Virus record (IMG/VR): IMGVR_UViG_3300043122_000207
Coordinates: 124,001-188,000 of that record
Direction: 5' to 3' (one strand)
Source of the DNA: a virus
Length of the DNA: 64,000 nt
Shown here in pieces: positions 38,118 to 61,200 of this stretch. Positions within the stretch are counted from its first letter, which is position 1, and each line of letters starts with the position of its first letter. The translations under genes and the position numbers were made by a program. The notes below the pieces were generated by a model. It had not been told where the DNA came from, made no database searches, and saw only the letters and a program-made list of their open reading frames with translations.

Positions 38118-38208
38118 ATTGACAACCCCTTTCTTTAACATCTATTGAAATGTTCTGTTAAGGTTGGTATGAACAATTAATTGATATCAAATTTAAGGAG
38201 GTATATAA

Positions 38209-42948: not shown

Positions 42949-44604
42949 ATGGCTGGAAATAATAGACAAGTAGCAGTTATACCTATTAAATATAAAGATA
43001 GAGAGTTAGCATTACCAGGAGAAATTATCCTGGATAGTGATGGACGAATGTTTGCTAAATTAAATGATGGAACTGTCAAACCCATACGTGGCGAACAATT
43101 TAATTTTATTCAAGATTTAATTAAACATAATTGGCATGTCGGTGACCAGGAATCTTTAGATTATGATATGGCAAGTTGGATTAAAACTGGAGACTATGAC
43201 CCTTCTATTGATTATGAACGAGGGACAATATTAATTAAGGAATATTATTTAGAACCTGATGGTACTGAAAAGGAAAGATGGAGGGCTATAGCACCTATAA
43301 CGGAGTTAAGTGGTGTAATAGTCAATGATAATACTGGGAAAACTTTAGAGGATATGATAAATGATGATCTATCTGATGGTTTTATATCTACAGATGATAA
43401 ATTAGGAGATGGTGATTTACAATATGTTTCGGGGAATACATTCACTATCGTTGGTGATTGGTTAGATATATTCTTAGAAGATAGAAAACTTAAAATGCTA
43501 TCAGATGGTAATGAAGTTTTTTCTTTGATAGATCATGTGAATTATGATGGGACAGTTACGACTGTGACATTGGAGGATTCTGTTCTTGGGTCATCTATAG
43601 AGGAGGTTTTATATTCTATAATATCCCCTGGTGAAACTGGACCTATTTCGGATACCGATACATATTCTAAGATAGCTGAATATTTGGAAGCTGGAAATAA
43701 TATAGATATTGATTTATCTAATGCTGATAAATTGAAAATAAGTTCTCCAACCGATACTGATGGCATAAAATCAGTTATAGGTGATTGGATTCAAGGTGGC
43801 GGTGCGACCACTGTATCCTATAATCCGACTGCCGGTACTCTTAAGATATCCAGTGTCAACACACAACGAAGTGATGGAGAAATAAATAGTTTGATAGAAA
43901 GCCACATGAATGGACCTGTTGAGATCGGGGATAATTTAAAAGTCGGTGGCAATATAGATTTAACGGGATTTGATTTAGTTTGGGATGAACATACAGACGG
44001 TGCTAGAATCACATTCGTTAATCCGAGTGATGCAGATGAAACATATATGCTTTTTGAAACAAACGATAACAGTGATGAATATTTTAAATGGGGGCATAAA
44101 GATGTTTCTTTTGAGGAATGGATGCGTTTAGAACAAAGTGGTTTGACAGTTAATGGTGAGATTACAGGCACAAAAGTTTGGAATGCAGTGTATAATGGTG
44201 ATGTCGCGGAACTTTTTGATTGTGTAGAGCATCAAGAATTTGAACCTGGTGATGTTTTGGTTTCGATGAAAGGTTTATGTTGTAAAACATCAGAGGAAAA
44301 ACACCGTGGTGTTGTGGGTGTTGTTTCAGATCCTGAATCATATGGGTATTTGCTTGGTGGTCCTGAAAGAGATTCCATTGATGACTATGGTGAAAACCAA
44401 CAACCTGTAGGGATAACAGGGCGTACTAAAGTAAAAGTTACAGGTGATATAAAAGAGCATGATCTTTTGGTCACATCTAAAAAATCTGGATACGCAACAA
44501 AGATTAATAGTGATGAATATATGCCCGGAACTGTTTTTGCTAAAGCTTTAGAAGGTAACAATGGTGAAGACAAAAAAATTTGGGCTTTAATAATGAACGC
44601 ATAA
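42949..44604 (+). CDS. Tail-fibre/spike-like protein with C-terminal trimer-type domain
   Basis: 551 residues, AGAGGTGAG site. The N-terminus (RDRELALPGEIILDSDG) resembles phage structural attachment domains. The middle is Asp/Gly/Ser/Thr-rich, with repeated beta segments as in fibres. The C-terminal about 140 residues (GDVAELFDCVEHQEFEPGDVLVSMKG..., later HRGVVGVVSDPESYGYLLGG) resemble the Peptidase_G2/self-cleaving or assembly domain of fibre proteins. It is the first gene of the long operon with the radical SAM genes and may be one of their targets. Confidence 0.6.
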   Translation: MAGNNRQVAVIPIKYKDRELALPGEIILDSDGRMFAKLNDGTVKPIRGEQFNFIQDLIKHNWHVGDQESLDYDMASWIKTGDYDPSIDYERGTILIKEYYLEPDGTEKERWRAIAPITELSGVIVNDNTGKTLEDMINDDLSDGFISTDDKLGDGDLQYVSGNTFTIVGDWLDIFLEDRKLKMLSDGNEVFSLIDHVNYDGTVTTVTLEDSVLGSSIEEVLYSIISPGETGPISDTDTYSKIAEYLEAGNNIDIDLSNADKLKISSPTDTDGIKSVIGDWIQGGGATTVSYNPTAGTLKISSVNTQRSDGEINSLIESHMNGPVEIGDNLKVGGNIDLTGFDLVWDEHTDGARITFVNPSDADETYMLFETNDNSDEYFKWGHKDVSFEEWMRLEQSGLTVNGEITGTKVWNAVYNGDVAELFDCVEHQEFEPGDVLVSMKGLCCKTSEEKHRGVVGVVSDPESYGYLLGGPERDSIDDYGENQQPVGITGRTKVKVTGDIKEHDLLVTSKKSGYATKINSDEYMPGTVFAKALEGNNGEDKKIWALIMNA

Positions 44605-44625
44605 AATTGAAAGGGTGATGGTTTA

Positions 44626-45336
44626 ATGTTTGATCCACATTATATGCCTAGAGAAATAGTGGATAAAATGTACAATAAATATTTTATCCATAATTTCAAA
44701 ATGATGCTTAAATATGTAGATTATGATTGGGTTCATCCGATGGATGTAAAGACAAACGACCATATGGTTTCATGGGATAATGACCCGTATTTGGAAAAAA
44801 CAAAAAATGAAAGAATAAAGTTAGGGTTGGATGTTTTGGAGAATGGGAACTATTGGCCATTCACAGGGGACTGGGGCATGAATGTTTCTGAAGGATGTCA
44901 TAGGATATGGTCTTTACAGGAGGTTTATAAAAACATCAAAAAATATGAAAAAAGATATTTGATGTTTAAGCATAGTTGGCAATTTTATTATGATTTTCGG
45001 AAAATACAGCTCGACCATACAATTGAAGGTATCGATAATTTTGACGAATTATATAGCACATTCACAGAGTATGTGTATGTTCCTGATAAATGTATAGGTG
45101 AACCTTATTTAAAAAACACACTTGAAGACAAGACTGTAGATAAAATAGATTTTGGAGAATTTAACCTTTGTGTGATGGAATGTAAAAACATCTATGATAT
45201 ATTTTTGGCTTATATATCAATACCGGTTTTAATGAGGTATCCTTTAGCACACCAAGAGAAGATAGGTAAAAGAGTTCCTTCTTTACCACATATGAATGAT
45301 GAGGGATTTTTTAGAGAATGGTACAGTAAAAGGTAG
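44626..45336 (+). CDS. ParB-like protein, copy 1
   Basis: 236 residues, 21 bases after the fibre gene. The centre reads GLDVLENGNYWPFTGDWGMNVSEGCHRIWSL, aligning with GLDVHKNGMYNPILLQ... and EGRHRSLG of the two later copies. A P-I-x(n)-E-G-x-H-R core is typical of ParB/Srx-like domains, which bind nucleotides and in some families cut DNA or modify proteins. In this copy the flanks differ and the C-terminal NGIYYGGIS motif of the other two is missing. The role in this operon is unknown; it may be an adaptor or enzyme. Confidence 0.5.
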   Translation: MFDPHYMPREIVDKMYNKYFIHNFKMMLKYVDYDWVHPMDVKTNDHMVSWDNDPYLEKTKNERIKLGLDVLENGNYWPFTGDWGMNVSEGCHRIWSLQEVYKNIKKYEKRYLMFKHSWQFYYDFRKIQLDHTIEGIDNFDELYSTFTEYVYVPDKCIGEPYLKNTLEDKTVDKIDFGEFNLCVMECKNIYDIFLAYISIPVLMRYPLAHQEKIGKRVPSLPHMNDEGFFREWYSKR

Positions 45337-45348
45337 GGGGTATATATA

Positions 45349-46452
45349 ATGGAAAAGGGAGATATTTTTTTTAATAGCTTAAATAGTGTGCAGTTGATAT
45401 TGAATAAGAAATGTAATTTTAATTGTAGCTATTGTTTTTCAGATAATGATGGTGAGGAAATGGATTCCGAATTACTGTTTTCTGATGTTTATAGATTTTT
45501 AAAAGAAAACTTATCGGATGATACAACTTTAAATTTTTTTGGTGGAGAACCAATGTTAGATTACCGAGAAAAGATAGACCCGTTAGTTTGTACTTTAAGG
45601 GATGACGGGTTTGAAGGTGGTATAGGTATAGTTACAAATGGGAGTCTTTTCAACGAAAAAATAATGGATGAAATCATTGAGACAAATGTATCTGTTATGG
45701 TTAGTTTGGATGGTGATTATGAGACATTCTCTAAAAATAGAAATTCAGATCGTGAAGTTTTTGATGATATTATAAATAGTATAAAATATTTTGTTTCTAA
45801 AGATTACCCGAATATCAGTGTTCGTTTAACATATGGCGAAGATGACATTGAGAATTTAACCAAAAATATTAAATTTATATATTCACTTGGGGTGGATGTG
45901 ATTGAATTTTACCATGTTGATGAAATAAAACTCGATAAAAAATCAGCGGAAAAGTTAAAAGAAGAATTTGATAAATTGTTTTTCTTTTATGTGAAAAACG
46001 ATGTTAAAATAAAATATATAGATGACTTGGTTCATTATTATTTAAATCCGGATGAGCATTCCAGAGGTAAATTACATCAGTGTGGATTGTTAAATAAAGA
46101 TAATTTTGATATGACAATCGATACTTCCGGTGATATTTTTACATGTCATCATTTTAATTCTGATGATAAAAAATATGATAGTTTTCATATCGGTAATATA
46201 AAGGAAACTTTCTATAAAGAAAAAATAAAGAATTTGAATTTGGGTCATTTAAAGAAAAAATATGTTTATGCACATAATGCAAGAGAAAATACCTGTTCAA
46301 AATGTAAATTGTATGATTTGTGTAATTCTATTTGTACTATGCAAAATATAAAGCAAAACAACAATATTTTTTTAAATTATAATGTCGATTGTTTTATAAA
46401 AAGGTCCTTCTATGATGTTATAGAATGGAGATTGAATGAGGTGAGACAATGA
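45349..46452 (+). CDS. Radical SAM protein with SPASM-type domain, copy 1
   Basis: 367 residues. C22-x3-C26-x2-C29 (CNFNCSYC) binds the radical SAM iron-sulfur cluster. FFGGEP is the SAM-binding GGE motif, and VTNGS and MVSLDG are barrel strands. The C-terminal part holds CGL...TCHHF and C-x2-C-x5-C-x3-C, the cysteine pattern of SPASM domains with auxiliary clusters. Such proteins modify peptides and proteins (sulfatase maturation, RiPP thioether or cyclophane links). It follows ParB-like copy 1 by 12 bases and overlaps the next gene by four. Confidence 0.85.
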   Translation: MEKGDIFFNSLNSVQLILNKKCNFNCSYCFSDNDGEEMDSELLFSDVYRFLKENLSDDTTLNFFGGEPMLDYREKIDPLVCTLRDDGFEGGIGIVTNGSLFNEKIMDEIIETNVSVMVSLDGDYETFSKNRNSDREVFDDIINSIKYFVSKDYPNISVRLTYGEDDIENLTKNIKFIYSLGVDVIEFYHVDEIKLDKKSAEKLKEEFDKLFFFYVKNDVKIKYIDDLVHYYLNPDEHSRGKLHQCGLLNKDNFDMTIDTSGDIFTCHHFNSDDKKYDSFHIGNIKETFYKEKIKNLNLGHLKKKYVYAHNARENTCSKCKLYDLCNSICTMQNIKQNNNIFLNYNVDCFIKRSFYDVIEWRLNEVRQ

Positions 46453-47204
46453 CAGATAGGGATATTTTTGGTTGTTTGTATAAAGATTATATAGAAACCA
46501 ATTTAAAAAATATTGTAAGTCACAGTTTATTCGATATAGAATTTGTGACTCCAGAAAAACTGGCATGTATGGTTGATCTACCAAATAAACCATATTTTTT
46601 TGACGAGAATGGAAAGATAAAAAATGAGAATATTAATTTAGAGGGTATTGAGGGGTTAAATAAATCTAGAGATTTAGCTTTGGATATTCTAGAAAATGGT
46701 TTTTATTATCCCTTGATTGTGCAAAAGGATGAGTTAGGGTATATTGGTGCTGAAGGGAGACACCGTTCCTTGGGTATTTTATCTTTATATAATAAGGGTG
46801 TTTGGCCCAGAGATAAAAGAATACCTGTTATAGTGTGTTATTTTGATTATCAGTCCCTCGTTAAGGGTGTAAAAGATGTTAGAAGTGGAAAAAAGGATTG
46901 TATAATAGGGGAATACCCAATGAATGAAAGTCTTTTTTTGAATGCATCCACATTAGCAGATTTATTTTCAAAGAAAAATTATTTAATCAATTACGATAAA
47001 AAGAAACTTATTGATGATGAGTTAGGGATATTTCAATGCGAGATAAATGATCTCTATAGTTTTTTCATATTAAATGGTATTTATTATGGTGGTATAAGTA
47101 GAGATATTTTGAAATATAAAAAAAGAGATAATCCTATTGAACCATCTCGTGTTATAAACAATATCCGTGATTTTTATTTATTTTTCAAAAATGGGAGTGG
47201 ATGA
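46449..47204 (+). CDS. ParB-like protein, copy 2
   Basis: 251 residues, start overlapping the radical SAM stop (ATGA). It aligns along its length with the following gene: IETNLKNIVSHSLFDIEFVTPEKL, ALDILENGFYYPLIVQ, IGAEGRHRSLGILSLYNKGVW and a C-terminal FFILNGIYYGGIS. The EGRHR core with a preceding PLI strand is ParB/Srx-like. Interleaving with radical SAM genes suggests a shared pathway, perhaps substrate recognition or cofactor/nucleotide handling. Function not established. Confidence 0.55.
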   Translation: MTDRDIFGCLYKDYIETNLKNIVSHSLFDIEFVTPEKLACMVDLPNKPYFFDENGKIKNENINLEGIEGLNKSRDLALDILENGFYYPLIVQKDELGYIGAEGRHRSLGILSLYNKGVWPRDKRIPVIVCYFDYQSLVKGVKDVRSGKKDCIIGEYPMNESLFLNASTLADLFSKKNYLINYDKKKLIDDELGIFQCEINDLYSFFILNGIYYGGISRDILKYKKRDNPIEPSRVINNIRDFYLFFKNGSG

Positions 47205-47205
47205 A

Positions 47206-47973
47206 ATGAAACATAGGGAAATAACCGAATACTTTTATAATGATTTTATTGATACAAATTTACGCAATTTAAACAACCACCCACAATTCAATATCGAATG
47301 GATGACACCAGAAGAAATTATAAACAAACTGAATATACAGGGTGAAGAACATCATATGTTCGATGGTGATATGGATTATACTGATATACCTGGGGATCTT
47401 TTTCTCTATAACTCCTTTAATGATGCGAAAAAGTTGGGTTTGGATGTTCATAAAAATGGAATGTACAATCCCATTTTATTACAGAAGGTAGATGGTGTAT
47501 ATTCTAGATCCGAAGGAAGTCATCGTTTAAGAGGGATACTTCATCTTTATAAATCTGGTGTTTGGGATAAAAATAAGAAAATATGTTTTTTGGTGTGTGA
47601 ATTTGGATACGAAAAAATGAGATTGGAAATTGTTGATATAAGAAAAAATATCAAAAAAACTTTAGATGATCCTGATATGTATAAGATGGACGATGTTTTA
47701 ACTCTTAATGCACCTTTATATCATGGATGGGATAGTAGAACTAAACTCCTAGTCAAGTATGAAAGAAAAAAATTAACAAACGAAGAGCTTCAAATATACA
47801 GTTTTGATATAGAGAATTTTTATGACTTTTTTTTTATTAATGGTATTTATTATGGTGGTATAAGTAACGATTTATTTTTATACCATAATACAGATGAAAT
47901 GATTCATCCTAGTCCAGTAGTTAATGATGAAAAATTTTTTAAAAAATATATGGGGGATGTTAAAGATGAGTAA
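47206..47973 (+). CDS. ParB-like protein, copy 3
   Basis: 255 residues from ATG 47206, chosen because MKHREITEYFYNDFIDTNL then aligns with the start of copy 2. Shared blocks: FNIEWMTPEEI, GLDVHKNGMYNPILLQ, SEGSHRLRGILHLYKSGVW and FFFINGIYYGGIS. The core arginine of EGRHR is replaced by serine (EGSHR), so if catalysis needs it this copy may be inactive or different. Tandem duplicate of copy 2, one base after it, and overlapping the next radical SAM gene. Confidence 0.55.
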   Translation: MKHREITEYFYNDFIDTNLRNLNNHPQFNIEWMTPEEIINKLNIQGEEHHMFDGDMDYTDIPGDLFLYNSFNDAKKLGLDVHKNGMYNPILLQKVDGVYSRSEGSHRLRGILHLYKSGVWDKNKKICFLVCEFGYEKMRLEIVDIRKNIKKTLDDPDMYKMDDVLTLNAPLYHGWDSRTKLLVKYERKKLTNEELQIYSFDIENFYDFFFINGIYYGGISNDLFLYHNTDEMIHPSPVVNDEKFFKKYMGDVKDE

Positions 47974-49114
47974 CATAAAGAGAGGTTTCACTTTTGATGA
48001 ATATGAAAAAAGTATTAAAAATAGATATAATGCTTCTTTAATATTTAAGATAACTAATTATTGTCCACACAATTGTAGTTATTGTTATCATAAATATAAA
48101 AATGAAGAAGATCTTGATAAAGAAATGTCTTTGGATGTTTTTAAAGAAGCACTTTATAAACTAGGGGATAGTTTCGAAGTTATAAAATTACACTTACATG
48201 GTGGTGAGCCACTTACTGTACCATATGAAAAGTTAAAGTCTATGTTGGAGATAATAGAAGAATATAGACAAAAAAGAAATAGGGGTAAATTTATAATCAC
48301 TATGGCCACTAATTTATTGCTTCTTGATGAGGAAAAATTGGAAATTCTTGAAGAACACGATGTTAAGATTTCTACCAGTTATGATGGGAAATACCATAAT
48401 GAAAAAAGAGCGGTTAATCTTGAGAGAGTGAAAGAAAAAATTGATATGACCCAAGGTGTTGGGATGATAGGTGTTATGACAAAAGATTGGGTTGAGGATT
48501 TGGATGAATCAATAGATTATGTTGAAAATAGCAAAAAAGGGAAACCCTTGGTTAATCCAGTTATGGCTTTTCCTGCAGATGATGAAGATGTTCTCGATCC
48601 AGGTGATTATTCAGATTTTGTCATTCGACGTTTTGAAAAACAAATGGAGACTGGATTGTTTAGTTGGGGGACATTAAGATATCTACAAGCGGTTCTGGGT
48701 CATTCTGGCGACTGTTTTGTTTCGGGTTGTCTTAACTCAATATTTACAGTAACACCATCAGGAAATATAAAGGGTTGTGATTCCCGTAATGAAGATTATT
48801 GGTATTATTGTAATATATCTGATATAGAATGTGTTGAAGATATTTATGAGACTGAAAAGTATAAGAATATGCAGAGGATGTATTACAATAGATTAAAAAA
48901 ATGTGAAAAAGAATGTGATGTTTTTGAGTATTGTGTTGGTGGCTGTCCTAATAATTATAGGCTTAGACCGGATGGTGAATTCAGCAAAGATTACATGTGT
49001 TATGATTATAAACAGATGATATACTATTTTCGGGATTTTTATGAAAGCTTTGGTAGTAAAGAAGAGAATCTACCCGAAAGAATTAAGGATGTTTTGATGT
49101 TAAAAAATGATTGA
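47966..49114 (+). CDS. Radical SAM protein with SPASM-type domain, copy 2
   Basis: 382 residues from ATG 47966 (GGGGGA site, overlapping the upstream stop as ATGAGTAA). C33-x3-C37-x2-C40 (CPHNCSYC) binds the catalytic cluster; LHGGEP is the SAM motif. The C-terminal SPASM region includes GDCFVSGC, NIKGCD, CEKECDVFEYCVGGCPNNY and a last MCYDY cysteine, the full twitch/SPASM spacing of peptide-modifying enzymes. It differs substantially from copies 1 and 3, so it probably has its own target or reaction. Confidence 0.85.
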   Translation: MSNIKRGFTFDEYEKSIKNRYNASLIFKITNYCPHNCSYCYHKYKNEEDLDKEMSLDVFKEALYKLGDSFEVIKLHLHGGEPLTVPYEKLKSMLEIIEEYRQKRNRGKFIITMATNLLLLDEEKLEILEEHDVKISTSYDGKYHNEKRAVNLERVKEKIDMTQGVGMIGVMTKDWVEDLDESIDYVENSKKGKPLVNPVMAFPADDEDVLDPGDYSDFVIRRFEKQMETGLFSWGTLRYLQAVLGHSGDCFVSGCLNSIFTVTPSGNIKGCDSRNEDYWYYCNISDIECVEDIYETEKYKNMQRMYYNRLKKCEKECDVFEYCVGGCPNNYRLRPDGEFSKDYMCYDYKQMIYYFRDFYESFGSKEENLPERIKDVLMLKND

Positions 49115-49134
49115 TAAAAAGGAGATGGTGGGAA

Positions 49135-50121
49135 ATGTTTAGTGTACCGTTTAATCAAACCGAGGAGGAAATAGAATTATATAGGGATAATGAAGATATT
49201 ATAAAAGAAATTTATGCACCTATATCACCCAATTTTTTACACACTGCCCGACATATTGGGTGGTCAGAAAAAAATGATTATTTACTAGAGGAGCTTTTAA
49301 AAACTAGTTCTGAAACATCCATAGGATTGAATCTCTTGATGAATTCTATAAATGACGATAAAATATTTATGATGAATGATTTAAAAGATATGTTAAACCA
49401 AGTGTATGAATATCAAAAACTTGGTTTAAAAAAAGTTACAGTTGCAAACCCTATTCTGTATCGGGCTATAGTGGAGAATTTACCCGGTATCGATATCGGT
49501 TTATCTGTTATTGCTAATGCTGACACCATAGAAAAAATAAAGCAATTTTATGATTTTGGTAATCTAGTAGAATATTGTGTTCCACCAAAATTAACAAGAA
49601 ACAGGGATTTTATAGAAAAGATAAAATCACTATTTGATGGTGTTAAAATTAAAATGATGGTTAATTGTTTTTGTAATCCAAACTGTGTTGGTTTTATACA
49701 CCATCACATTGAGGCTTCTAGTGGAAAAAAAGAAAAGGATACAGGGTATTTTAATTATGTTTGTAGCCAACATACAATAAACCCTCTTAAAAAGAATATA
49801 ATTTTCCCCAATGAAATAGAGCATTATTCAGAGTATGTGGATGTTTTCAAAATATCAGGAAGAGAGACACATACCGAAACTATGTCGGAAATTTTGGATC
49901 TATATAGAAATCCTAAAAAATTAAAGGAATATAATTTTCTTAAAGTTTTAGATGGATATAAAGCAAAGGGTGCTTACCTTTATGACATAAGTCCAAAGAA
50001 TGGTCCAAGCAGAAACTTAGATTTAATAGAAAACTGTGACTATATGTGTATAGAAAATAAATGTGACCATTGTGGGGAAATGTTAGCTAAAAATTTTGAA
50101 TTTATGGAGGGTGAATTATAA
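49135..50121 (+). CDS. U32-like protein, copy 2
   Basis: 328 residues from ATG 49135 (AAGGAGATGGTGGG site). The barrel strand VTVANPILYRAIVENLPGIDIGLSVIANADTIEKI is typical of U32 proteins, followed by a cysteine cluster (NCFCNPNC, later YVCSQH), KISGRE and a C-terminal C-x4-C-x2-C. U32 proteins (UbiU/V, RlhA, TrhP) bind iron-sulfur clusters and hydroxylate without oxygen. In an operon of radical SAM enzymes it may carry out a linked oxidation. Its stop overlaps the next start. Confidence 0.6.
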   Translation: MFSVPFNQTEEEIELYRDNEDIIKEIYAPISPNFLHTARHIGWSEKNDYLLEELLKTSSETSIGLNLLMNSINDDKIFMMNDLKDMLNQVYEYQKLGLKKVTVANPILYRAIVENLPGIDIGLSVIANADTIEKIKQFYDFGNLVEYCVPPKLTRNRDFIEKIKSLFDGVKIKMMVNCFCNPNCVGFIHHHIEASSGKKEKDTGYFNYVCSQHTINPLKKNIIFPNEIEHYSEYVDVFKISGRETHTETMSEILDLYRNPKKLKEYNFLKVLDGYKAKGAYLYDISPKNGPSRNLDLIENCDYMCIENKCDHCGEMLAKNFEFMEGEL

Positions 50122-51092
50122 TGAATATTATGTTAAATAATTATTGCAATTTAAATTGTGAATATTGTTTTGTAGAGAAACAATCAGGTCCCAATGCCAG
50201 AAATATAACTATGGAGAATTTTGCAAAATATATCAAATTCTTAAAAAACAATGGTATTAGAGAGGCTAAGTTGTTAGGAGGTGAACCAACACTTCATCCA
50301 AAATTTAAAGCTATAGTTAAATATTTAAATAGTGATGATTTTTTTGAGAAAATATTGATATTTACTAATGCTCTATCTCTCAATGAAGAAATGGTTGATG
50401 AAATAATTTCACCTAAAGTTAGTTTTTTAGTGAACTATAATAAAGAGGAAGATATAGGGAAAGAAAATTTTAAAAAAACATCTGATAATATCGATTATTT
50501 GGTTGGTGAATATAATAAACACAATAGTGGACATAGAGTCACTCTCGGTATAAACATATCTGAACCTGATTTTGATTATAAATATATAGTGGATAAGAGT
50601 CAGGAGTTGGGGTTAGATAATATAAGGTATAGTTTAACTGTGCCAACTAAAATAAATGAGGATTATGTGTCAATAAAAGAATATGAGAAATTTATACCTG
50701 GTATCTTAGAATTTTTTAAATATGCTAATAGAAGGAATATTAGATTGAGTATCGACTGCAACAATATTCCAAAGTGTTTATTTGAAAAAGAAGAATTGTT
50801 GGAAGTGATTTTGGGTAATAACGATATGTGTGAAAGAAAATATTGCACAATGCCTCTTGATATAGATATGGATCTAAATGTCACTAGATGTTTTCCTTTT
50901 AAAAACAGATTTGAAGTGAATTTAGAGGATTTTAATGATATGGGTGAGTTAGTAGATTATTTTGGGTCTAGAATAGACAAGTATAGGTTCAATGAACCCA
51001 CATTTAAAGAATGTGTTGATTGTGAACTTTTTAAAGAAAGACTATGTCAAGGTGGATGTTTGATTTATAAATTTGGTAACAACAAACTCTAA
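50121..51092 (+). CDS. Radical SAM protein with SPASM-like C-terminus, copy 3
   Basis: 323 residues. C9-x3-C13-x2-C16 (CNLNCEYC) lies almost at the N-terminus, then LLGGEPTLHP and the barrel strands. The C-terminus has MCERKYC, TRCFPF and ECVDCELFKERLCQGGC, a SPASM-like auxiliary cluster site. It is the last of the seven enzyme-like genes and sits directly upstream of the small protein and the tryptophan-array gene, so those are its nearest candidate substrates. Confidence 0.85.
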   Translation: MNIMLNNYCNLNCEYCFVEKQSGPNARNITMENFAKYIKFLKNNGIREAKLLGGEPTLHPKFKAIVKYLNSDDFFEKILIFTNALSLNEEMVDEIISPKVSFLVNYNKEEDIGKENFKKTSDNIDYLVGEYNKHNSGHRVTLGINISEPDFDYKYIVDKSQELGLDNIRYSLTVPTKINEDYVSIKEYEKFIPGILEFFKYANRRNIRLSIDCNNIPKCLFEKEELLEVILGNNDMCERKYCTMPLDIDMDLNVTRCFPFKNRFEVNLEDFNDMGELVDYFGSRIDKYRFNEPTFKECVDCELFKERLCQGGCLIYKFGNNKL

Positions 51093-51104
51093 GGGGGTTT
51101 CAAA

Positions 51105-51389
51105 ATGGAAATTAAAATTAATGGAACAGATGTAGTTAGTGATATTGAATATTGGGAAATAAGTAAAGCTAGTGAGGGAAATTTATCTACAATGATTTTG
51201 AAGGCTGAATTTTCTTCTAATTTGTTTGATTTGGTGGATACAGATACAACAGAGAATATTCTTTTTGTAGAGGATGATGAAAATAAATCGGTTAAGTTTG
51301 ATATTGACAATATTAAATTTATCGGACTAAAATCTAAAGAAGGTTCAATGCAGCAACAATTTGTAGCACATGGTGTTTTAGAGAAATAA
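51105..51389 (+). CDS. Small beta-rich protein
   Basis: 94 residues, AAGGGGG site. Acidic, beta-rich (MEIKINGTDVVSDIEYWEISKA...), no membrane segment. Its opening resembles that of the protein at 52128 (ILIDGVSISDY), so the two may be distant relatives flanking the tryptophan-array gene. It could be a small virion protein or a substrate/partner of the modifying enzymes. No family was recognised. Confidence 0.5.
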   Translation: MEIKINGTDVVSDIEYWEISKASEGNLSTMILKAEFSSNLFDLVDTDTTENILFVEDDENKSVKFDIDNIKFIGLKSKEGSMQQQFVAHGVLEK

Positions 51390-51407
51390 TTATTGGAGGT
51401 GGGTCTT

Positions 51408-52094
51408 GTGCCGTATAAAACTTGGTCTAACAGAACCATTTGGGGTAGATCTAATTTGGTTGGATTGATAGTTAAAAAAGATGACTTACAGGAAATAGAA
51501 GACGCGATAAAAAACCATAGAGATTTTTTAGATAACTACCCTCACAATTTCAATCAACCTAATACAAATTACCCAGTTACAAAAGAAGGTAAAATTGTAT
51601 ACGATACTATAGATGACATAAAAGCCGGTATAAACTCCTTCTATTACGGAAATAACCCAAACAGTGGACTCGTTTCTGATGATAAAACAGGGGACCACAT
51701 CACAGCTGAAGATATATCCTCTTTAAGGGATAGAGTCAACCATATAGAGACTAACTGTGTTGCGTGTGATACCTGTCAATTTTCTACTTGGACAGCCCGA
51801 TGGTCAACTCGATGGACAACCCGATGGGACAATAATTGGGGTGCTAGTTGGACAACTAAATGGACAACCCGATGGGACAATAATTGGGGTGCTAACTGGA
51901 CAACCCGATGGGATAATAATTGGACCAATAGTTGGGGTAACAGTTGGGGTGGCAGTTGGGGTTCTAGTTGGAATAACAACTGGGGTGCCAATTGGGGTAC
52001 ACACTGGAATAGTCGTTGGGGTTCTAGTTGGGGTGGAAGATGGGGTAGCCGATGGGGTAGTAGTTGGTCTAGTAAATCCTCTTACTTCTCTTAA
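51408..52094 (+). CDS. Tryptophan-array protein (24 Trp, period four)
   Basis: 228 residues from GTG 51408, seven bases after GGAGGT (a TTG at 51393 overlaps the site). Residues 1-110 are a globular, phage-structural-like region with a helix (DLQEIEDAIKNHRDFL) and AEDISSLRDRVNHIE. A C-x2-C-x2-C motif (C117, C120, C123) follows. From W128 to W220 every fourth residue is Trp, 24 in all, with small or polar residues between (Gly, Ser, Asn, Thr, Arg) and no interruption. A short SSKSSYFS tail ends it. Possible roles are a rigid adhesive or sugar-binding tail, or the substrate of the upstream radical SAM enzymes. Both are inference. Confidence 0.7.
   Translation: MPYKTWSNRTIWGRSNLVGLIVKKDDLQEIEDAIKNHRDFLDNYPHNFNQPNTNYPVTKEGKIVYDTIDDIKAGINSFYYGNNPNSGLVSDDKTGDHITAEDISSLRDRVNHIETNCVACDTCQFSTWTARWSTRWTTRWDNNWGASWTTKWTTRWDNNWGANWTTRWDNNWTNSWGNSWGGSWGSSWNNNWGANWGTHWNSRWGSSWGGRWGSRWGSSWSSKSSYFS
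51789..52067 (+). repeat. Array of 24 twelve-base units, each starting TGG
   Basis: TGG recurs every 12 bases without exception from 51789 to 52065. Units vary inside (for example TGGACAACCCGA, TGGGACAATAAT, TGGGGTGCTAGT), and groups of three or four units recur in order in the first half, indicating growth by tandem duplication. Because the period is a multiple of three, long spurious open frames also appear in other frames and on the opposite strand. Confidence 0.95.
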
Positions 52095-52127
52095 TACCCA
52101 AAAACAAATAATGGGGGTCGAAAATAC

Positions 52128-52487
52128 ATGAATAAGAACGATACAATATATGGATTCAAAAGACCCCCCATTTTAATAGATGGGGTGTCTATTTCTGATT
52201 ATTCGAAAACCAAATATGATATTTTAAATGAAGAATTTCATATTTTTTTTTATGGACTTGACGGTACCAGTAGATTGAAAGTTTTAGAGAGGATAAATTT
52301 TTTTAATGGTATCATGGATAAAGATAATGTTGGTTTCTGTTTTAAAAATAGTGATGGGGAATCAATTGGGTATTTAAAAAACCCTAAATTACTAAGATAC
52401 GGTATATCTGGTGAGACAGTGGATAGACAAAAATTGGAAGTTGTTTTTGGTGGTAAATTAATTTACAAACTTGGGGGTGACATTTAA
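52128..52487 (+). CDS. Small protein after the tryptophan array
   Basis: 119 residues, GGGGG site. The RPPILIDGVSISDYSKTKYDI start and beta-rich body with VVFGGKLIYKLGG end suggest a compact beta domain. Possibly related to the protein at 51105 and perhaps a virion or tail-associated subunit. Its stop overlaps the next start (TAATG), linking it to the sugar cassette. No family was recognised. Confidence 0.5.
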   Translation: MNKNDTIYGFKRPPILIDGVSISDYSKTKYDILNEEFHIFFYGLDGTSRLKVLERINFFNGIMDKDNVGFCFKNSDGESIGYLKNPKLLRYGISGETVDRQKLEVVFGGKLIYKLGGDI

Positions 52488-53626
52488 TGAAAATATGTAT
52501 GATAAGTGATCCCATGGCTTCTTACCCGGAAAAGTCATACCATAGTAGTTCTATTCAATTAAACCATATGGTTGATGGTCTTTTGGAATTGGGACACGAT
52601 ATAGATCTGGTTATTGGGTCTGGTGAGAATATTGATAATATAGAGGGTTTAAAGATATTTGATTATCCTAACAGATATGTCGATTTAGGGGATAAGTTAA
52701 ATGATCATAGACACCAGGCAACTAACGACTTCTTTCACAATAGGGTTATTGGTGTTCTAAGGGATAATATGGGAGAGTACGATATTATACATGTACATGA
52801 TACCAATTTGTTTAATAAACTGAAATTGATTGATGATTTGAATACACCTATATTGTACACTCTACATGTTAGTATTGATTACGATGATTCTAATGAAACA
52901 TATATGTCTGCACCTTATTTGCAAGATACTGTAGACAAAACAGAAGGCAATTATTTTACTGCAATGAGTAATTTCGTTAAAGATAACTCAGTTAAGAATG
53001 CCGATAAAATATATGTTGTTTATAATGGTATAGATTTAGATATGTTCAGTTTTGAAGAAAACAAAGAGGATTTTTTTATATTTGTGGGAAGGGTATCCGA
53101 TAAGAAAGGTTTTTCCTATATATTGGATGCGTTGGATCATTATGATTTCAATATTAAGATTGCTGGACCTTTAATGTATAATAATGATAGTGACAATGAT
53201 ACACTTAATGTTGATGGTAGATTGAGAAATTACAATATAGAGGAGTATTTTAACAGAAGTAATGTTGAATACCTCGGTATATTAGACCACGATCGGGTTT
53301 CAGAATATTTGTCTAAGGCTAAAGGTTTGATTCATCTTCATGAGTGGGGTGAAGGTTTTTCTATGGCTATAGCTGAATCTTTATCGTGTGGTACACCGGT
53401 TTTATCTACTGATCGTGGTGGACCTGGTCACTATCTTTTAGATGGATATGATTCCATAGTTTTAGAGGGTGAGACATTCAAAGACCCTATAAAGGTGGTT
53501 TCTTCTCTTAAAGATTTGGAAAATATAAAACCAGAAAATTGTAGGATTTCAGCAGAAAGATTTGATAAAAATAAATTGGGAAATCAATATGAGGAAGTTT
53601 ATCGAGATATTCTAGAAAATATGTAA
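52487..53626 (+). CDS. GT4-type glycosyltransferase
   Basis: 379 residues of GT-B fold. N-terminal domain with GLLELGHDIDLVIGSG and IIHVHD; then FVGRVSDKKGFSYILDAL, KIAGPL and LGILDHDRVSEYLSKAKGLIHLHEWGEGFSMAIAESLSCGTPVLST, which contains the E-x7-E nucleotide-sugar motif. It transfers a sugar from an activated donor, probably to a protein or glycan. Translationally coupled to the preceding small gene and followed by nonulosonate-type genes, so decoration of phage or host surface structures is plausible. Confidence 0.8.
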   Translation: MKICMISDPMASYPEKSYHSSSIQLNHMVDGLLELGHDIDLVIGSGENIDNIEGLKIFDYPNRYVDLGDKLNDHRHQATNDFFHNRVIGVLRDNMGEYDIIHVHDTNLFNKLKLIDDLNTPILYTLHVSIDYDDSNETYMSAPYLQDTVDKTEGNYFTAMSNFVKDNSVKNADKIYVVYNGIDLDMFSFEENKEDFFIFVGRVSDKKGFSYILDALDHYDFNIKIAGPLMYNNDSDNDTLNVDGRLRNYNIEEYFNRSNVEYLGILDHDRVSEYLSKAKGLIHLHEWGEGFSMAIAESLSCGTPVLSTDRGGPGHYLLDGYDSIVLEGETFKDPIKVVSSLKDLENIKPENCRISAERFDKNKLGNQYEEVYRDILENM

Positions 53627-53639
53627 GGGGATGGATAAT

Positions 53640-54290
53640 ATGGAAAAAGATATTGGTATTTTTATGCCTGGTAGACTGAAAAGTGAAAGGTTACCTAATA
53701 AACTATTATTGGATATCGATGGTACCAATTTATGGGAGATAGCATGTAAAAAATTATCCAAATTACCAGATAAATATGGTAAATATGTTTTAGTTTATGA
53801 CGACAAATTAATCGATATTGCAAATGAATATGGGTTGAATGTTATAAAAAGAGATATTGGTACTACTGAGGCTGATGGTCCATTGACATATATTTATGGT
53901 GGGGTTTCAGAGATAGATAAAACCCATATTATGTTTCTTAACCCCTGTCTTTTATTTTTGACAGTCGAAACTATTGAAAATTCTATTGAGGAATTTTTAA
54001 ATTCTGATGCAGACTATGCAACAAGTGTCAAAAAATTGGAGAATTGGATTTTTGATTCTGAGGGTGATAATTTAAATAAAATCAAATATAAATTTTTATC
54101 AACTAAAGATATCGACCCCCTTTATCAAGCCGCACATGCTTTCCATATTTTTAATAAAGAAAATTTTTTTAAAGATGGTTATATGTTAAAAAAGGGACAT
54201 CAATTGATTGAGATACCTGAAGATGAAACTATTGATGTTGATACAAGGGATGATTTTTTATATGCTAAATGGAGGTGGAGTCTTACTTGA
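53640..54290 (+). CDS. CMP-nonulosonate (sialic acid-like) cytidylyltransferase
   Basis: 216 residues from ATG 53640, nine bases after AAGGGG. The start IFMPGRLKSERLPNKLLLDIDG matches the R-x-x-SxRLPxKxL motif of CMP-NeuAc/CMP-KDO synthetases. IMFLNPCLLFLT fits the substrate strand and DVDTRDDFLYAKW the conserved D-x-x-D-F end. It activates a 2-keto sugar with CTP. Slightly shorter than most family members. The stop overlaps the HAD gene start by four bases. Confidence 0.7.
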   Translation: MEKDIGIFMPGRLKSERLPNKLLLDIDGTNLWEIACKKLSKLPDKYGKYVLVYDDKLIDIANEYGLNVIKRDIGTTEADGPLTYIYGGVSEIDKTHIMFLNPCLLFLTVETIENSIEEFLNSDADYATSVKKLENWIFDSEGDNLNKIKYKFLSTKDIDPLYQAAHAFHIFNKENFFKDGYMLKKGHQLIEIPEDETIDVDTRDDFLYAKWRWSLT

Positions 54291-54568
54291 AATATGTTAT
54301 AGATATTGATGGTACTATATGTACACAAGAGGATGACTATGAAGATGCCAAACCTTTAAAAGAAAATATAGAACGATTTAATAAATTGTACGACGAAGGT
54401 CATACAGTCTGGTATTTTACAGCTAGAGGTACAGAAACTGGTATAGATTGGACCGAAACCACTAAAACACAATTTGAAAAATGGGGTGTTAAATACCATG
54501 AACTTCTATTTGGTAAACCCAGTGCTGATGTATATATAGATGATAGGTGTGAGAATATAAATAAATAA
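54287..54568 (+). CDS. HAD-type phosphatase
   Basis: 93 residues from TTG 54287 (GGAGG/GGTGGAG site; overlaps the previous stop as TTGA). YVIDIDGTI contains the nucleophile and general acid aspartates, WYFTARGT the motif II threonine, LFGKPSADVYIDDRC the lysine and acidic motif IV. Its build is that of the short HAD proteins in capsule and surface-sugar loci. In this cassette it could dephosphorylate a sugar phosphate made by the NeuB-like enzyme. Confidence 0.75.
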   Translation: MKYVIDIDGTICTQEDDYEDAKPLKENIERFNKLYDEGHTVWYFTARGTETGIDWTETTKTQFEKWGVKYHELLFGKPSADVYIDDRCENINK

Positions 54569-54593
54569 ATGGATGGGATGGGTGGTTATTGTG

Positions 54594-55409
54594 ATGTTTA
54601 TTGGGGAGATTGGAATAAACCATAACGGTGATCTTAGAGGTTGTAAGAGACTAATAGCATCCTGTAAGGCTTCTGGTGTGGATATTGTTAAGTTTCAGAA
54701 AAGAAATCCTGATGTATGTGTCCCAGATAATAAGAAAGATATATTAAGAGAAACCCCTTGGGGGACTATGAGATATATTGATTATAAGAAAAAGATTGAA
54801 TTCGGTAAGGAAGAGTTTGACGAGATAGATAAATTTTGTAACCAAATAGGAATTGAGTGGACTTCGAGTGTCTGGGATATAGATAGTTTAGAATTCATTT
54901 TAAATTATGATGTTCCGTTTATCAAAATACCAAGTGCTATGGTCACAAATAAAAAACTATTGAGAAAGATTAAATCTTCAGATATTCCAGTTATTATGTC
55001 AACAGGAATGAGCACAAAAAAAGAAATAAAAGATGCAGTTGATATACTGTCTGGTTGTGATTTATCAATTCTACATTGTAATAGTAGTTACCCATGTGCT
55101 GATGAGGAAATAAATTTAAAAACAATACAGACACTTAAAAAGGAATTTCCAAATCATACTATTGGTTACTCTGGACACGAGAGTGGTATATTACCCAGTG
55201 TTTATGCTAGAGCAGCTGGTGCTGATATAATAGAAAGACATGTTACTTTGGATAGAAATATGTGGGGAACAGATCAATCCTCTAGTCTTGAACCTATTCA
55301 ACTAAAAAAATTGATTAATAGGTTATGGGAGCTTGATAGGATAATGGGTGACGGTAAGATTAAAGTCTATGATTCTGAAAAAGAGATTAAAGCTAAACTT
55401 AGAAAATAA
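54594..55409 (+). CDS. neuB: NeuB-family nonulosonate synthase without SAF domain
   Basis: 271 residues from ATG 54594; the upstream ATG at 54573 has no clear site. IGEIGINHNGD is the family start, followed by VKFQKRNP, TPWGTMRYIDYKK, FIKIPSAM, VIMSTGMS, LHCNSSYP, GYSGHESG and IERHVTLDRNMWGTDQSSSLEP, all typical of sialic-acid or pseudaminic/legionaminic synthases, which condense PEP with a hexosamine. The protein ends after the barrel: the usual C-terminal antifreeze-like (SAF) domain is missing. Last gene of the long operon. Confidence 0.8.
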   Translation: MFIGEIGINHNGDLRGCKRLIASCKASGVDIVKFQKRNPDVCVPDNKKDILRETPWGTMRYIDYKKKIEFGKEEFDEIDKFCNQIGIEWTSSVWDIDSLEFILNYDVPFIKIPSAMVTNKKLLRKIKSSDIPVIMSTGMSTKKEIKDAVDILSGCDLSILHCNSSYPCADEEINLKTIQTLKKEFPNHTIGYSGHESGILPSVYARAAGADIIERHVTLDRNMWGTDQSSSLEPIQLKKLINRLWELDRIMGDGKIKVYDSEKEIKAKLRK

Positions 55410-55413
55410 TTGT

Positions 55414-55447
55414 ATACCAGGGTTTATTCCCTGGTATTTTTTTTATT
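55414..55447 (+). terminator. Rho-independent terminator of the long operon
   Basis: ATACCAGGG and CCCTGGTAT pair around TTTATT and run into a long T-tract. It marks the end of the 42949-55409 operon; no comparable terminator was seen inside it. Confidence 0.9.
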
Positions 55448-55484
55448 TTTTGGTAACACCATTATAGAGGTTTTAGGTGTTTAA

Positions 55485-55507
55485 AATTATATATTATATA
55501 CTTGGAA
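55485..55507 (+). promoter_or_regulatory. Phage promoter-like motif, copy 5
   Basis: AATTATATATTAT at 55485-55497, six bases, then GGAA at 55504, 41 bases before the start codon at 55545. The G position matches the other copies although the next base differs. Confidence 0.7.
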
Positions 55508-55544
55508 TTGAAAAAAAAAAATATAGAAAAAAGGAGATGTTAAA

Positions 55545-55997
55545 ATGAAAATTTATGTGGGTAAATTTAATGAAAATGTTGATGTTGAAATGGGTTTTTT
55601 TAATGAGAAAACGGCAGCAGAATTAACTGCTAGTTATAAGGAGGTTGATTTAGATTTATCTGATTTTAAGAAAAACAATCTAAAAGATTTTAAAAAAGAA
55701 TACAGTGATTGGATGGAACACGAATTTAAACACAAAAGAGAGGAACTGGATGAGGATAAAAAAATAGTACAAACATGGTCTAATCCTGAGGAGAGAAAAG
55801 CTCACGAAGATAAATACCCAAGTCTTAGTAAATGGGGTGTTGATGATATAGAATTAAATTCTGAGCATCTAGAGTACGTTTATATTGATCACAGTAACCA
55901 TGATGATACAGTTGTAAAAAAACACATTGAGATAAAGGACGAGATGTCTATAGATGAGCTTGTTGATGTTAGACATTTTGTGGACGATAATTTTTAA
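55545..55997 (+). CDS. Small acidic protein, paralog C
   Basis: 150 residues, AAGGAGATGTTAAA site, directly under promoter copy 5. Beta strand start (MKIYVGKFNENVDVEMGFF), charged helical middle, and a C-terminal EYVYIDHSNHDDTVV...DVRHFVDDNF that resembles the end of the next protein. The two are probably diverged duplicates. Function unknown; the promoter suggests early expression. Confidence 0.55.
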   Translation: MKIYVGKFNENVDVEMGFFNEKTAAELTASYKEVDLDLSDFKKNNLKDFKKEYSDWMEHEFKHKREELDEDKKIVQTWSNPEERKAHEDKYPSLSKWGVDDIELNSEHLEYVYIDHSNHDDTVVKKHIEIKDEMSIDELVDVRHFVDDNF

Positions 55998-56050
55998 AAA
56001 ATATTTTGATTAACAATATTTATGAAACCAAATAAAAAGGAGATGTTAAA

Positions 56051-56512
56051 ATGAAAGTATTTATTAGCAATTTGGAAAAAGAAACACCTCAGGTTAATTT
56101 TAATATGGTAGATGGTTTGGAAGATGGAGATTATAAAGAAGGTAATCTTATAATGTCAGAGATCACTAAAGAAAATGTTTTGGATATGAAACATGAATTG
56201 GGTGACCATATTGAAGTTGTGGCAGAAGAGATGCGTATGGATAAATTACCTATAGAAAATAAAGAACCTGTTGTTATGGAGGCCAGTCTTTCAGAAGTTA
56301 ATTCGAGACATATCGTTATAGAAGAGGATTGTGCTGTGGGTGTGGTTGTTGAATCTGCAACAGAAGAAAATAAAAACCATGTCGTGTATTTAGATCACGA
56401 AATTAATGATGTTCAAGAACACGATATGAACCCAGAGAGTTTTATGATTGAGGACTATGTTACAATTCGTGATACAATAAGTGAAGCTAAAAATTGGGAA
56501 CCAAAAGAATAA
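56051..56512 (+). CDS. Small acidic protein, paralog D
   Basis: 153 residues with the same AAGGAGATGTTAAA site. MKVFISNLEKETPQVNFNM at the start and HVVYLDHEINDVQEHDM near the end parallel paralog C. Very acidic. Acidic early phage proteins sometimes mimic DNA or inhibit host enzymes, but nothing here shows that. No family was recognised. Confidence 0.55.
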   Translation: MKVFISNLEKETPQVNFNMVDGLEDGDYKEGNLIMSEITKENVLDMKHELGDHIEVVAEEMRMDKLPIENKEPVVMEASLSEVNSRHIVIEEDCAVGVVVESATEENKNHVVYLDHEINDVQEHDMNPESFMIEDYVTIRDTISEAKNWEPKE

Positions 56513-56519
56513 GCAGTGT

Positions 56520-56543
56520 TTGCGGTGGTCTCTTCCACCGCAA
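56520..56543 (+). terminator. Hairpin between small genes
   Basis: TTGCGGTGG and CCACCGCAA form a 9-bp stem around TCTCTT, followed by TAATTTTT. It may terminate or attenuate before the gene at 56573. Confidence 0.65.
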
Positions 56544-56572
56544 TAATTTTTAAACCAAAGGGGATGGTAAAC

Positions 56573-57211
56573 ATGGGTGTCAAATTGAAAGGTTTGTCTT
56601 TAAATATCAAAAAAGAAGATATTGATGTAGAATTAGAAATCGATGAAGTCACATTAGATTTAGGAGACTTATTCTCCTTGATAAGTGAAGATGAAATTAT
56701 GAGCTTACTTGGTGATATCGATATCACTGAGGAAGGATTTGGAGAGTCACTGTCATATGATAATGAAAAGGAAAACAATAAAGAAATTAGTCTTAATAAA
56801 AAGAATGTAATGTATGACTTAAATAATATGATGAGCGAAACATCTAAGAGTAAAAACCCAAAAGGTTTATTACCTATTGATCAATATTTTGAATCTAGTT
56901 TTGATTATTGTGTTTGGTTTGTGGATGATGAAAGTTTTCTTTCAAATTCTTTCATAAATGCTGATAGTAATACACCTGTTGACTTTTTTGTTGGTGTCCA
57001 CTTTAAAGATTATAATGGAAAAACTGCAATGGGTTTTGAAACTCAATTTGCATTTGAAAATTTTATGGGTGATGTACAACGTAAATTTGAAAAACACTTA
57101 CCATCAAATAATGTCCAAATAGGTGTGATGATGGAACCACTGACACAGATTAGAAAGAAAGCTGGAGATAATGTTTTTGGTGAATTAAAATACACAAACA
57201 CTCAGATTTAA
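56573..57211 (+). CDS. Unrecognised protein
   Basis: 212 residues from ATG 56573 after AAGGGGATGG; the in-frame ATG at 56516 lies inside the hairpin and lacks a site. Acidic N-terminal half (DVELEIDEVTLDLGDL...), then a globular beta-rich part (FDYCVWFVDDESF, VDFFVGVHFKDYNG). No motif of known function. Confidence 0.5.
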   Translation: MGVKLKGLSLNIKKEDIDVELEIDEVTLDLGDLFSLISEDEIMSLLGDIDITEEGFGESLSYDNEKENNKEISLNKKNVMYDLNNMMSETSKSKNPKGLLPIDQYFESSFDYCVWFVDDESFLSNSFINADSNTPVDFFVGVHFKDYNGKTAMGFETQFAFENFMGDVQRKFEKHLPSNNVQIGVMMEPLTQIRKKAGDNVFGELKYTNTQI

Positions 57212-57227
57212 AAGAAGGGAGAATAAA

Positions 57228-57461
57228 ATGCTTGATGATTTAAAAGAGAAGTTTGAGAAAGTCAAGAAAGAAGAGCATTATAAAAAAATGAAAGAGGAAA
57301 ATCCCAATGGAACATATGTGTATATTGATAGATCTGGGAATAATGAAAGATCTGGGAATAATGAAAGATATGTGTGTATGGAATGTGGAGGGGAAATGTC
57401 TTTTAATGTGTATGGTGTTATACAATGTAATGATTGTGATTCTTTAGGTGTTAATATGTGA
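57228..57461 (+). CDS. Small zinc-ribbon protein
   Basis: 77 residues, AAGGGAG site. The C-terminus has C-x2-C (CMECGG) and C-x2-C (CNDCDS), a zinc ribbon. The middle contains a duplicated RSGNNE unit from an exact 18-base tandem repeat (near 57331-57366). Probably a small nucleic-acid- or protein-binding factor. Last gene of the rightward set. Confidence 0.6.
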   Translation: MLDDLKEKFEKVKKEEHYKKMKEENPNGTYVYIDRSGNNERSGNNERYVCMECGGEMSFNVYGVIQCNDCDSLGVNM

Positions 57462-57471
57462 CAGATTATAT

Positions 57472-57496
57472 ACCCGAGGATTTAACCTCGGGTTTA
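57472..57496. terminator. Bidirectional terminator
   Basis: ACCCGAGG and CCTCGGGT pair around ATTTAA with flanking T-rich sequence, between convergent genes at 57461 and 57502. Confidence 0.85.
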
Positions 57497-57501
57497 TTTT
57501 T

Positions 57502-61082: not shown

Positions 61083-61200
61083 TTTACGAAATGACCTCCT
61101 TATTTTTATGATTAATATGATAATATCTACTTAAGATTATACTAAAATATTTGTTAATTTTGTAATTCCTAGTATTACCTTTATACCTTTAATATCATTA

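Follow-up and report, generated by a model that had tools for sequence, protein, structure and literature searches.

The window analyzed here, a 64,000-nucleotide stretch (bases 124001–188000) of the 194,604-base virus record IMGVR_UViG_3300043122_000207, carries an exchangeable block of genes that probably acts as a cassette for the post-translational modification of a repeat-array protein encoded within the block itself. The cassette comprises genes for three radical S-adenosylmethionine enzymes of the SPASM type (rSAM1, rSAM2, and rSAM3), a U32-family protein, three ParB-like paralogues (P1, P2, and P3), and a 228-residue protein with 24 regularly spaced tryptophans. What the analysis shows directly is the gene content, the paralogy, the selection that maintains the tryptophan period, the co-transfer of the genes as one block, and the co-occurrence of close rSAM3 relatives with repeat arrays. 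A preliminary description of the window had placed seven enzyme-like genes (three rSAM, three ParB-like, and one U32-like) between a fibre gene and a gene encoding 24 tryptophans; this arrangement was confirmed, and every open reading frame (ORF) was found again, packed as described. The description was corrected in that an additional gene for a 94-residue protein lies between rSAM3 and the array gene, and the unit extends beyond position 52094, where genes for a glycosyltransferase, a cytidylyltransferase-like protein, a HAD-phosphatase-like protein, and NeuB follow. For P3, rSAM2, the U32 protein, and the array protein, the starts at 47206, 47966, 49135, and 51408, respectively, appear likelier than those of the longest ORFs, judging from the upstream sequence. 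The features of the cassette are as follows:

44626..45336, plus strand: P1, ParB-like paralogue (SEGCHR), assigned by paralogy; its fold is suggested by the model of P3
45349..46452, plus strand: rSAM1, SPASM-type (PF04055); nearest named model PapB, 134.5 bits against a cut-off of 340
46449..47204, plus strand: P2, ParB-like paralogue, assigned by paralogy
47206..47973 (longest ORF from 47167), plus strand: P3, ParB-like paralogue, assigned by paralogy and a structure model
47966..49114 (longest ORF from 47924), plus strand: rSAM2, SPASM-type (PF04055)
49135..50121 (longest ORF from 49111), plus strand: U32-family protein (PF01136, 29.8 bits, cut-off 22.4)
50121..51092, plus strand: rSAM3, 323 residues, marker of the conserved cassette (PF04055; 35–45% identity to relatives beside arrays)
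51105..51389, plus strand: 94-residue protein (ORF); a 94-residue gene without detectable similarity occupies the same place in the tail cluster of genome G323
51408..52094 (longest ORF from 51393), plus strand: repeat-array protein, 228 residues (N-terminal domain, CVACDTC, then 24 W-x-x-x units)
51789..52076, plus strand: the 24 units, with R, S, N, K, or H at position 4 in 24 of 24

The array consists of 24 uninterrupted W-x-x-x units, each opened by TGG (24 of 24), while the remaining three codons show 41–48% identity between units; the tryptophan period is therefore kept by selection at the protein level and is not that of a young DNA repeat. When ORFs were scored for periodic aromatic residues, the array filled 12 of 12 period-4 slots and the runner-up among the 199 ORFs called from the phage record filled 6, in agreement with the even spacing first noted (the longest array ORF contains 26 tryptophans overall). 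Position 2 is glycine in 11 of the 24 units, and position 4 is restricted to arginine (8), serine (7), asparagine (6), lysine (2), and histidine (1). Comparison of the two phage variants shows changes in the array protein at two filler residues and leaves every tryptophan in place. Among phage records, the whole protein had no match at 0.01, its N-terminus matched four records at E-values of 1–5 only, and a 35-residue junction query gave matches only at E-values of 7–8. A DNA-level search for tryptophan arrays was also performed: two loose patterns each returned at least 120 stretches in viral contigs, a stricter pattern returned 38, and at least 119 stretches were found in genome contigs; most loose-pattern stretches appear, by eye, to be 12-base DNA repeats. 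Among the matches listed, seven loci passed a composition filter, two of which belong to the window's own virus (L280 and L294). The other five (L273 in a viral contig; L317, L353, L399, and L401 in genome contigs) have 6–11 units and showed no match to the rSAM1–3 profile (E ≤ 1).

Relatives of the enzymes were sought in 398 genomes, a sample rather than the whole of the phylum to which a Clostridia genome belongs. The rSAM2 search matched eight of these genomes and led to G323. A profile combining the rSAM3 proteins of the phage and G323 matched seven genomes, three of them through weak partial matches only. Strong matches were identified at six places in four genomes (E ≤ 2.5e-92); the G323 protein, being part of the profile, was found by construction, and the five new places lie in G193 (two), G218 (two), and G267 (E-values of 6e-94 to 2.5e-92). 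At all six places, a repeat-array gene is adjacent to rSAM3 or one gene away from it, and in five of the six, all clostridial, the order is SPASM-type rSAM, U32, array, rSAM3; in two of these five (L456 and L459) the SPASM domain and U32 (5.7e-12 and 5.6e-11) were confirmed with Pfam, and the other three were assigned by similarity to rSAM2 and U32. The phage rSAM3 is 43–45% identical to the clostridial proteins and 35–37% identical to that of G323 (323 residues, E = 5e-61); the phage, G323, and the clostridial set represent three lineages in all. The co-occurrence with array or fibre genes that the preliminary description proposed as a check thus turned out in its favour. Its proposal of a modification system acting on tail proteins or on the tryptophan array is supported in part, through the association of arrays with close rSAM3 relatives; the array type did not carry over, as the arrays of the two other lineages are of Tyr/Trp or Tyr/Cys and not of tryptophan alone.

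The clostridial array proteins have a hydrophobic N-terminus, strings of [YW]-x-N (asparagine at +2 for 13–16 of the 19–23 aromatic residues per array), and a C-terminal part that is beta-rich by eye. They fill 13–14 of 16 period-3 slots, and the G323 array (YSNH YNSG YDDH YDCG ... CNTH SNTG) fills 8 of 12 period-4 slots, whereas none of the remaining ORFs, among 398 scored, exceeds 7; in three stretches of the G323 array tested, the period-4 z was 5.8–9.0. The array proteins of phage and bacteria have a common design but not a common sequence. The five clostridial sets (L456:10213-14803, L457:5661-10162, L458:5962-10457, L459:6066-10520, and L455:9576-14084) apparently constitute a separate, bacterial kind of modification locus. 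At L459, pilus-type genes (T2SSE, T2SSF, and prepilin peptidase) lie upstream, and L458 looks alike by eye. The G323 locus (L443:7504-14461) has the order subtilase, rSAM3, 94-residue gene, period-4 Tyr/Cys array, and three rSAM genes, and it lies in a contractile-tail cluster whose other members include YQBQ-like, sheath-initiator, Baseplate_J, Gp48, holin, and amidase genes. The subtilase beside rSAM3 would suit a different reading, in which a toxin, bacteriocin, or signal peptide is matured from the array and released, and rSAM/SPASM enzymes most often mature small peptides. We nevertheless regard a released peptide as very unlikely, given the 228-residue length and large N-terminal domain of the array protein, the lack of a recognizable exporter among the block proteins scanned, and the location of related loci, one within a tail cluster and another, L459, next to genes of pilus type.

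As a control, loci were scored for Trp/Tyr arrays. Those with strong rSAM3 matches, each about 4 kb long, had an array in 6 of 6 cases, and loci of about 2.4–4.1 kb at weaker matches had none (0 of 3 weak rSAM3, 0 of 12 rSAM1-like, and 0 of 5 rSAM2-like loci outside the rSAM3 genomes); the comparison is limited by the shortness of the control loci and by a score that detects Trp/Tyr only. In the rSAM3 genomes, one of seven rSAM2-like loci (L427) scored for an array, and the other six were taken as too short to reach it. The rSAM2-like regions of G193, G218, G267, and G323 were read, and those of G120, G241, G354, and G395, scored in short loci, had no array; likewise, rSAM1 matched 12 of 395 genomes, where one region (L445) was read and the 12 loci scored had no array. 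An array that is an unmodified structural or sticky element, binding surfaces through its tryptophans while the enzymes act elsewhere and a shared cargo site accounts for their proximity, would be in keeping with a movable block, which could gather unrelated genes, with the fact that modification is something we infer, and with the Campylobacter phages that, in the available text of PMC2853527, carry rSAM clusters as an interchangeable module. It leaves unexplained, however, the arrays at 6 of 6 close rSAM3 relatives against 0 of 20 weaker-rSAM loci, and we consider it rather improbable. Among the 3 genomes of the order to which G323 belongs and the 15 of its class, G323 itself was the only match. 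The clostridial rSAM3 of L458 has partial matches in three phage records (E-values of 4e-5 to 1e-4), and of two distant plasmid relatives of rSAM3, neither with a Trp/Tyr array by score, one lies within a cluster of PqqD/YcaO/TfuA genes, a point in favour of the modification reading. On a Chlorohelix plasmid (L461:6333-9026), two rSAM genes flank a gene for a 98-residue protein that is PqqD-like by eye; of the two rSAM proteins, the second is distantly related to rSAM3.

The assignment of three enzymes to the radical SAM/SPASM superfamily, already made in the preliminary description, is borne out by PF04055 matches (E-values of 7.6e-15, 5.7e-15, and 1.5e-16 for the ORFs at 45349, 47924, and 50121, respectively), by a CxxxCxxC core, and by conserved C-terminal SPASM/twitch-like cysteines, and that of the U32-like protein by its above-threshold PF01136 score. 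Among phage records, rSAM2 (at 1e-5) and rSAM3 (at 1e-3) had no match, whereas rSAM1 matched 143 at E ≤ 1, the best being a human faecal phage (2e-15), and gene lists were read for two Campylobacter phages and Phass-1 among them; in viral contigs, rSAM1, rSAM2, U32, the P1–P3 alignment, and a flanking virion gene matched only the same two contigs. As regards the ParB-like label of P1–P3, the three are paralogues with a common motif, E-G-x-H-R, and a low-confidence model of P3 (predicted local distance difference test, pLDDT, 58) has ParB-type or sulfiredoxin structures as its top PDB matches (E ≥ 0.0038), but sequence support never rose above threshold, the only match being that of the ORF at 46449 to phrog_1033 (E = 0.16). 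No P1–P3 relatives were found in 10 genomes or in the 398 genomes, the latter search having no positive control; among phage records, P3 had no match at 0.01 and P2 matched one at E = 10. Proteins of the ParB/sulfiredoxin fold bind nucleotide, and P1–P3 may do so by analogy.

The U32 protein shares about 27% identity, across 59% of its length, with the phage U32 family phrog_5757; relatives occur in 217 phage records (E ≤ 0.01), which we take to be mostly enterobacterial and T4-like. Cysteines that are candidate iron–sulphur ligands are present, and its PDB sequence matches include no U32 protein. U32 proteins carry out oxygen-free hydroxylations, including that of transfer RNA, and this activity, together with their carriage by phages, might suggest that the enzymes modify nucleic acid, either phage DNA by hypermodification or host RNA. 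Nucleic acid is a highly improbable target, since a thymidylate-synthase-family gene is absent from the phage record (0 of 1, with 9 of 14 control genomes positive), the block lies among virion genes, and the bacterial counterparts sit with arrays.

Comparison with contig 3300017923_000004 revealed that the block was exchanged as one unit between phage variants, because it is near-identical inside (12 differences) and differs by about 3% elsewhere in the aligned window; this comparison rests on one genome pair, the contig being the sole diverged relative found. The 13.8-kb block runs from the 3′ part of the fibre gene, which lies partly within it, to approximately 57.9 kb and includes the enzymes, the tryptophan array, and four sugar genes. 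The next longest stretch with no more than 12 differences spans 3,954 bases, and synonymous divergence is 0.08–0.25 in four genes to the left and 0–0.008 in the genes from 44626 to 57211. A further contig, 3300036466_000332, is identical to the window across the compared parts and adds no information. The block and its remaining features are as follows:

44113..57914, no strand: exchanged block; it has 12 differences from contig 3300017923_000004, where the remainder of the aligned window differs by 3.0%
42949..44604, plus strand: tail fibre (phrog_19567, E = 2.7e-9; residues 323–407 resemble phage Mu tail fibre S, PDB 5yvq, E = 1.5e-8)
52128..52487, plus strand: 119-residue protein, unmatched in PHROG and Pfam at E ≤ 0.1
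52487..53626, plus strand: GT4-type glycosyltransferase (PF00534, E = 4.8e-20)
53631..54290, plus strand: cytidylyltransferase of the CMP-sugar type (PF02348, 26.2 bits, cut-off 22.6; PseF-like, E = 4.3e-10, under the cut-off of that model)
54269..54568, plus strand: HAD-phosphatase-like protein, capsule type (TIGR01689, E = 1.7e-6, under the cut-off)
54573..55409, plus strand: NeuB-family sialic/nonulosonic acid synthase (PF03102, E = 6.1e-72)

The sugar genes (52487–55409) may constitute a route to a cytidine monophosphate (CMP)-nonulosonate in a jumbo phage. The preliminary description had omitted them, and as NeuB, the cytidylyltransferase, the HAD-phosphatase-like protein, and the glycosyltransferase are encoded directly downstream and moved in the same block, they give some room to a glycan module, in which the rSAM, U32, and ParB-like enzymes would make or alter an unusual nonulosonic-acid sugar, with the glycosyltransferase placing it on the host surface, the array protein, or the fibre. 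No counterpart of the four sugar proteins or of P1–P3 was found, however, when about 20 kb surrounding each of the six strong rSAM3 matches was searched (phmmer E ≤ 0.1), so that rSAM, U32, and array genes occur without sugar genes, and such a module is unlikely. The gene order of the phage parallels that of Fusobacterium phage JD-Fnp1 across much of the genome; in JD-Fnp1, searched over all but bases 50,001–53,513, the block ORFs were unmatched at E 1e-3, as were the sugar, P1–P3, 94-residue, and 119-residue proteins also at E 0.1, and the region between the homologues of the flanking genes (36861–38141 and 57502–58263) holds mostly small hypothetical ORFs. Over positions 4717–64000 of the window as a whole, kilobase bins with 0 differences from contig 3300017923_000004 alternate with bins of 5–12%, a sign of frequent recombination.

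We infer the substrate, bond, virion location, and purpose of the proposed array-modifying cassette along the following lines. rSAM2, U32, and rSAM3 would form the core acting on the array, with rSAM1, P1–P3, and the 94-residue protein as accessory components. The likeliest chemistry would be radical carbon–carbon cross-linking between each tryptophan ring and the i+3 side chain (R, S, N, K, or H), with position 4 as the acceptor, which would build a ladder of small cyclophane rings, and U32 would add an oxygen-free hydroxylation. The product may be a rigid, chemically armoured appendage or rod beside or on the tail fibre, and the sugar genes would probably decorate the same appendage.

Several observations weigh against this reading. 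rSAM1–3 score far under the cut-offs of all the named models shown (the best 25 each): the best maturase scores are 134.5 bits against 340 for rSAM1, 83.9 against 300 for rSAM2, and 56.7 against 284 for rSAM3, so that none scores as a triceptide maturase by the named models. The substrate motif of PapB is Cys-x3-Asp/Glu; rSAM1 is under the PapB cut-off and the array contains no such repeat, so neither feature of a PapB-type ranthipeptide maturase was found. A PqqD-type recognition domain, usual for ribosomally synthesized and post-translationally modified peptides, is absent among the ten proteins scanned. The five clostridial places represent one lineage (rSAM3 74–93% identical), and rSAM3 alone appears clearly specific from the comparisons, with rSAM2 and U32 being of the same types and not proven orthologues: rSAM2 matches the clostridial SPASM proteins (E-values of 5e-20 to 6e-25) at 66–83 bits against 83.9 for general SPASM models, and U32 matches the clostridial U32-type proteins (1e-9 to 7e-7) at 23–32 bits against 69 for enterobacterial phage U32 proteins. 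No similarity was detectable between the array proteins or between the 94-residue proteins of the phage and G323. The period-3 signal is modest when all residues are counted (z of 2.8–4.1, three clostridial arrays tested), and the structure model of the array protein is unusable (pLDDT 37). In favour of the reading, none of the 13 glycines of the phage array and every one of its 11 basic residues fall at position 4 (probabilities of 0.003 and 8e-7, respectively, were positions free), but these statistics are post hoc and the units are partly duplicated and not independent.

It can be proposed, tentatively and with less confidence than for the cassette itself, that rSAM3, a SPASM-type rSAM, and U32 turn aromatic arrays into cross-linked, hydroxylated rods on surface appendages, a general enzyme-built material. 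If so, bacteria would use such rods beside pili, a prophage would use them on a contractile tail, and a jumbo phage would swap them, along with its sugar genes and fibre tip, to alter its encounter with the host; a virus particle bearing an aromatic ladder cross-linked by enzymes is something we have not seen described. What is known of radical SAM chemistry on peptides comes mainly from small ones; here a phage protein with a long repeat is the likely target, and its block recombines together with the fibre tip. Three rSAM enzymes without assigned function and a U32 protein thereby gain a named candidate substrate, rSAM3 serves as a marker linking the phage, the contractile-tail cluster, and the bacterial loci, and the system could help to explain how attachment organs are toughened or retuned in phages whose hosts are presumably anaerobic.

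The phage record encodes RNA polymerase subunits and ribonucleotide reductase by family search, and its RNA polymerase beta subunit family and synteny with JD-Fnp1 place it with the jumbo phages that have their own multisubunit RNA polymerase. The ribonucleotide reductase ORF (window 31084–34515, 1143 residues) has two family-matching stretches, with weak helicase and recombinase matches further in, and perhaps contains an intein. Outside the window, one ORF of the record is of alpha-amylase type by eye (60312–61418), and the ORFs at 43679–45511 and 191816–192874 have near-identical N-termini and are possibly duplicated fibre-type genes.

No described phage system with this set was found in the literature covered, mostly outside subscription journals, or in family libraries, and the nearest likenesses concern its parts. 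Campylobacter phages CP220 and CPt10 resemble it in carrying, according to the available text of PMC2853527, an interchangeable multi-rSAM module in a virulent phage; their module differs in a possible amidinotransferase, and the stretches compared contain no P1–P3 relative, the best rSAM similarity being E = 1.6e-21 (rSAM1–3 profile). The phage U32 proteins of phrog_5757 belong to the same family as the one described here, which differs in that rSAM and array genes are part of the same run. ParB/sulfiredoxin-fold proteins are alike in the low-confidence fold match of the P3 model and the E-G-x-H-R motif, and P1–P3 differ as three paralogues without a sequence family match. In the rSAM enzymes known to form cyclophanes, the bond made runs from Trp, Phe, Tyr, or His to the beta-carbon at i+2, where Asn, Arg, Asp, Ser, or Ala stands, as given in the accessible part of PMC11002830, and Aro-x-Asn is the motif of known cyclophane peptides in the parts available of PMC9062424 and PMC11002830. 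The triceptide systems (XncB, OscB, MscB, and YhhB), to the extent that these sources cover them, share rSAM/SPASM enzymes with the loci described here, and the [YW]-x-N strings of the clostridial arrays fit their i+2 motif; unlike triceptides, the phage has 24 units on a 228-residue protein, a U32 protein in the set, and rSAM1–3 under the named cut-offs shown, and its array is constrained at i+3 (R/S/N/K/H, four-residue period) and not at i+2, a further point to be set against the proposed chemistry. Closer in spacing are the Aro-Xaa-Xaa-Asn repeats beside rSAM genes, for which larger cyclophanes have been proposed (PMC9062424, in part): the Cluster 27 peptides and the TVGG-repeat peptide TvgA likewise place a repeated motif by an rSAM gene, and the Cluster 27 peptides have, in the same available text, two repeats, as against 24 at the phage locus with its three rSAM enzymes, U32, and phage block. 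By analogy, then, the clostridial arrays appear to fit the known i+2 pattern, and the phage array resembles the Aro-x-x-Asn pattern.

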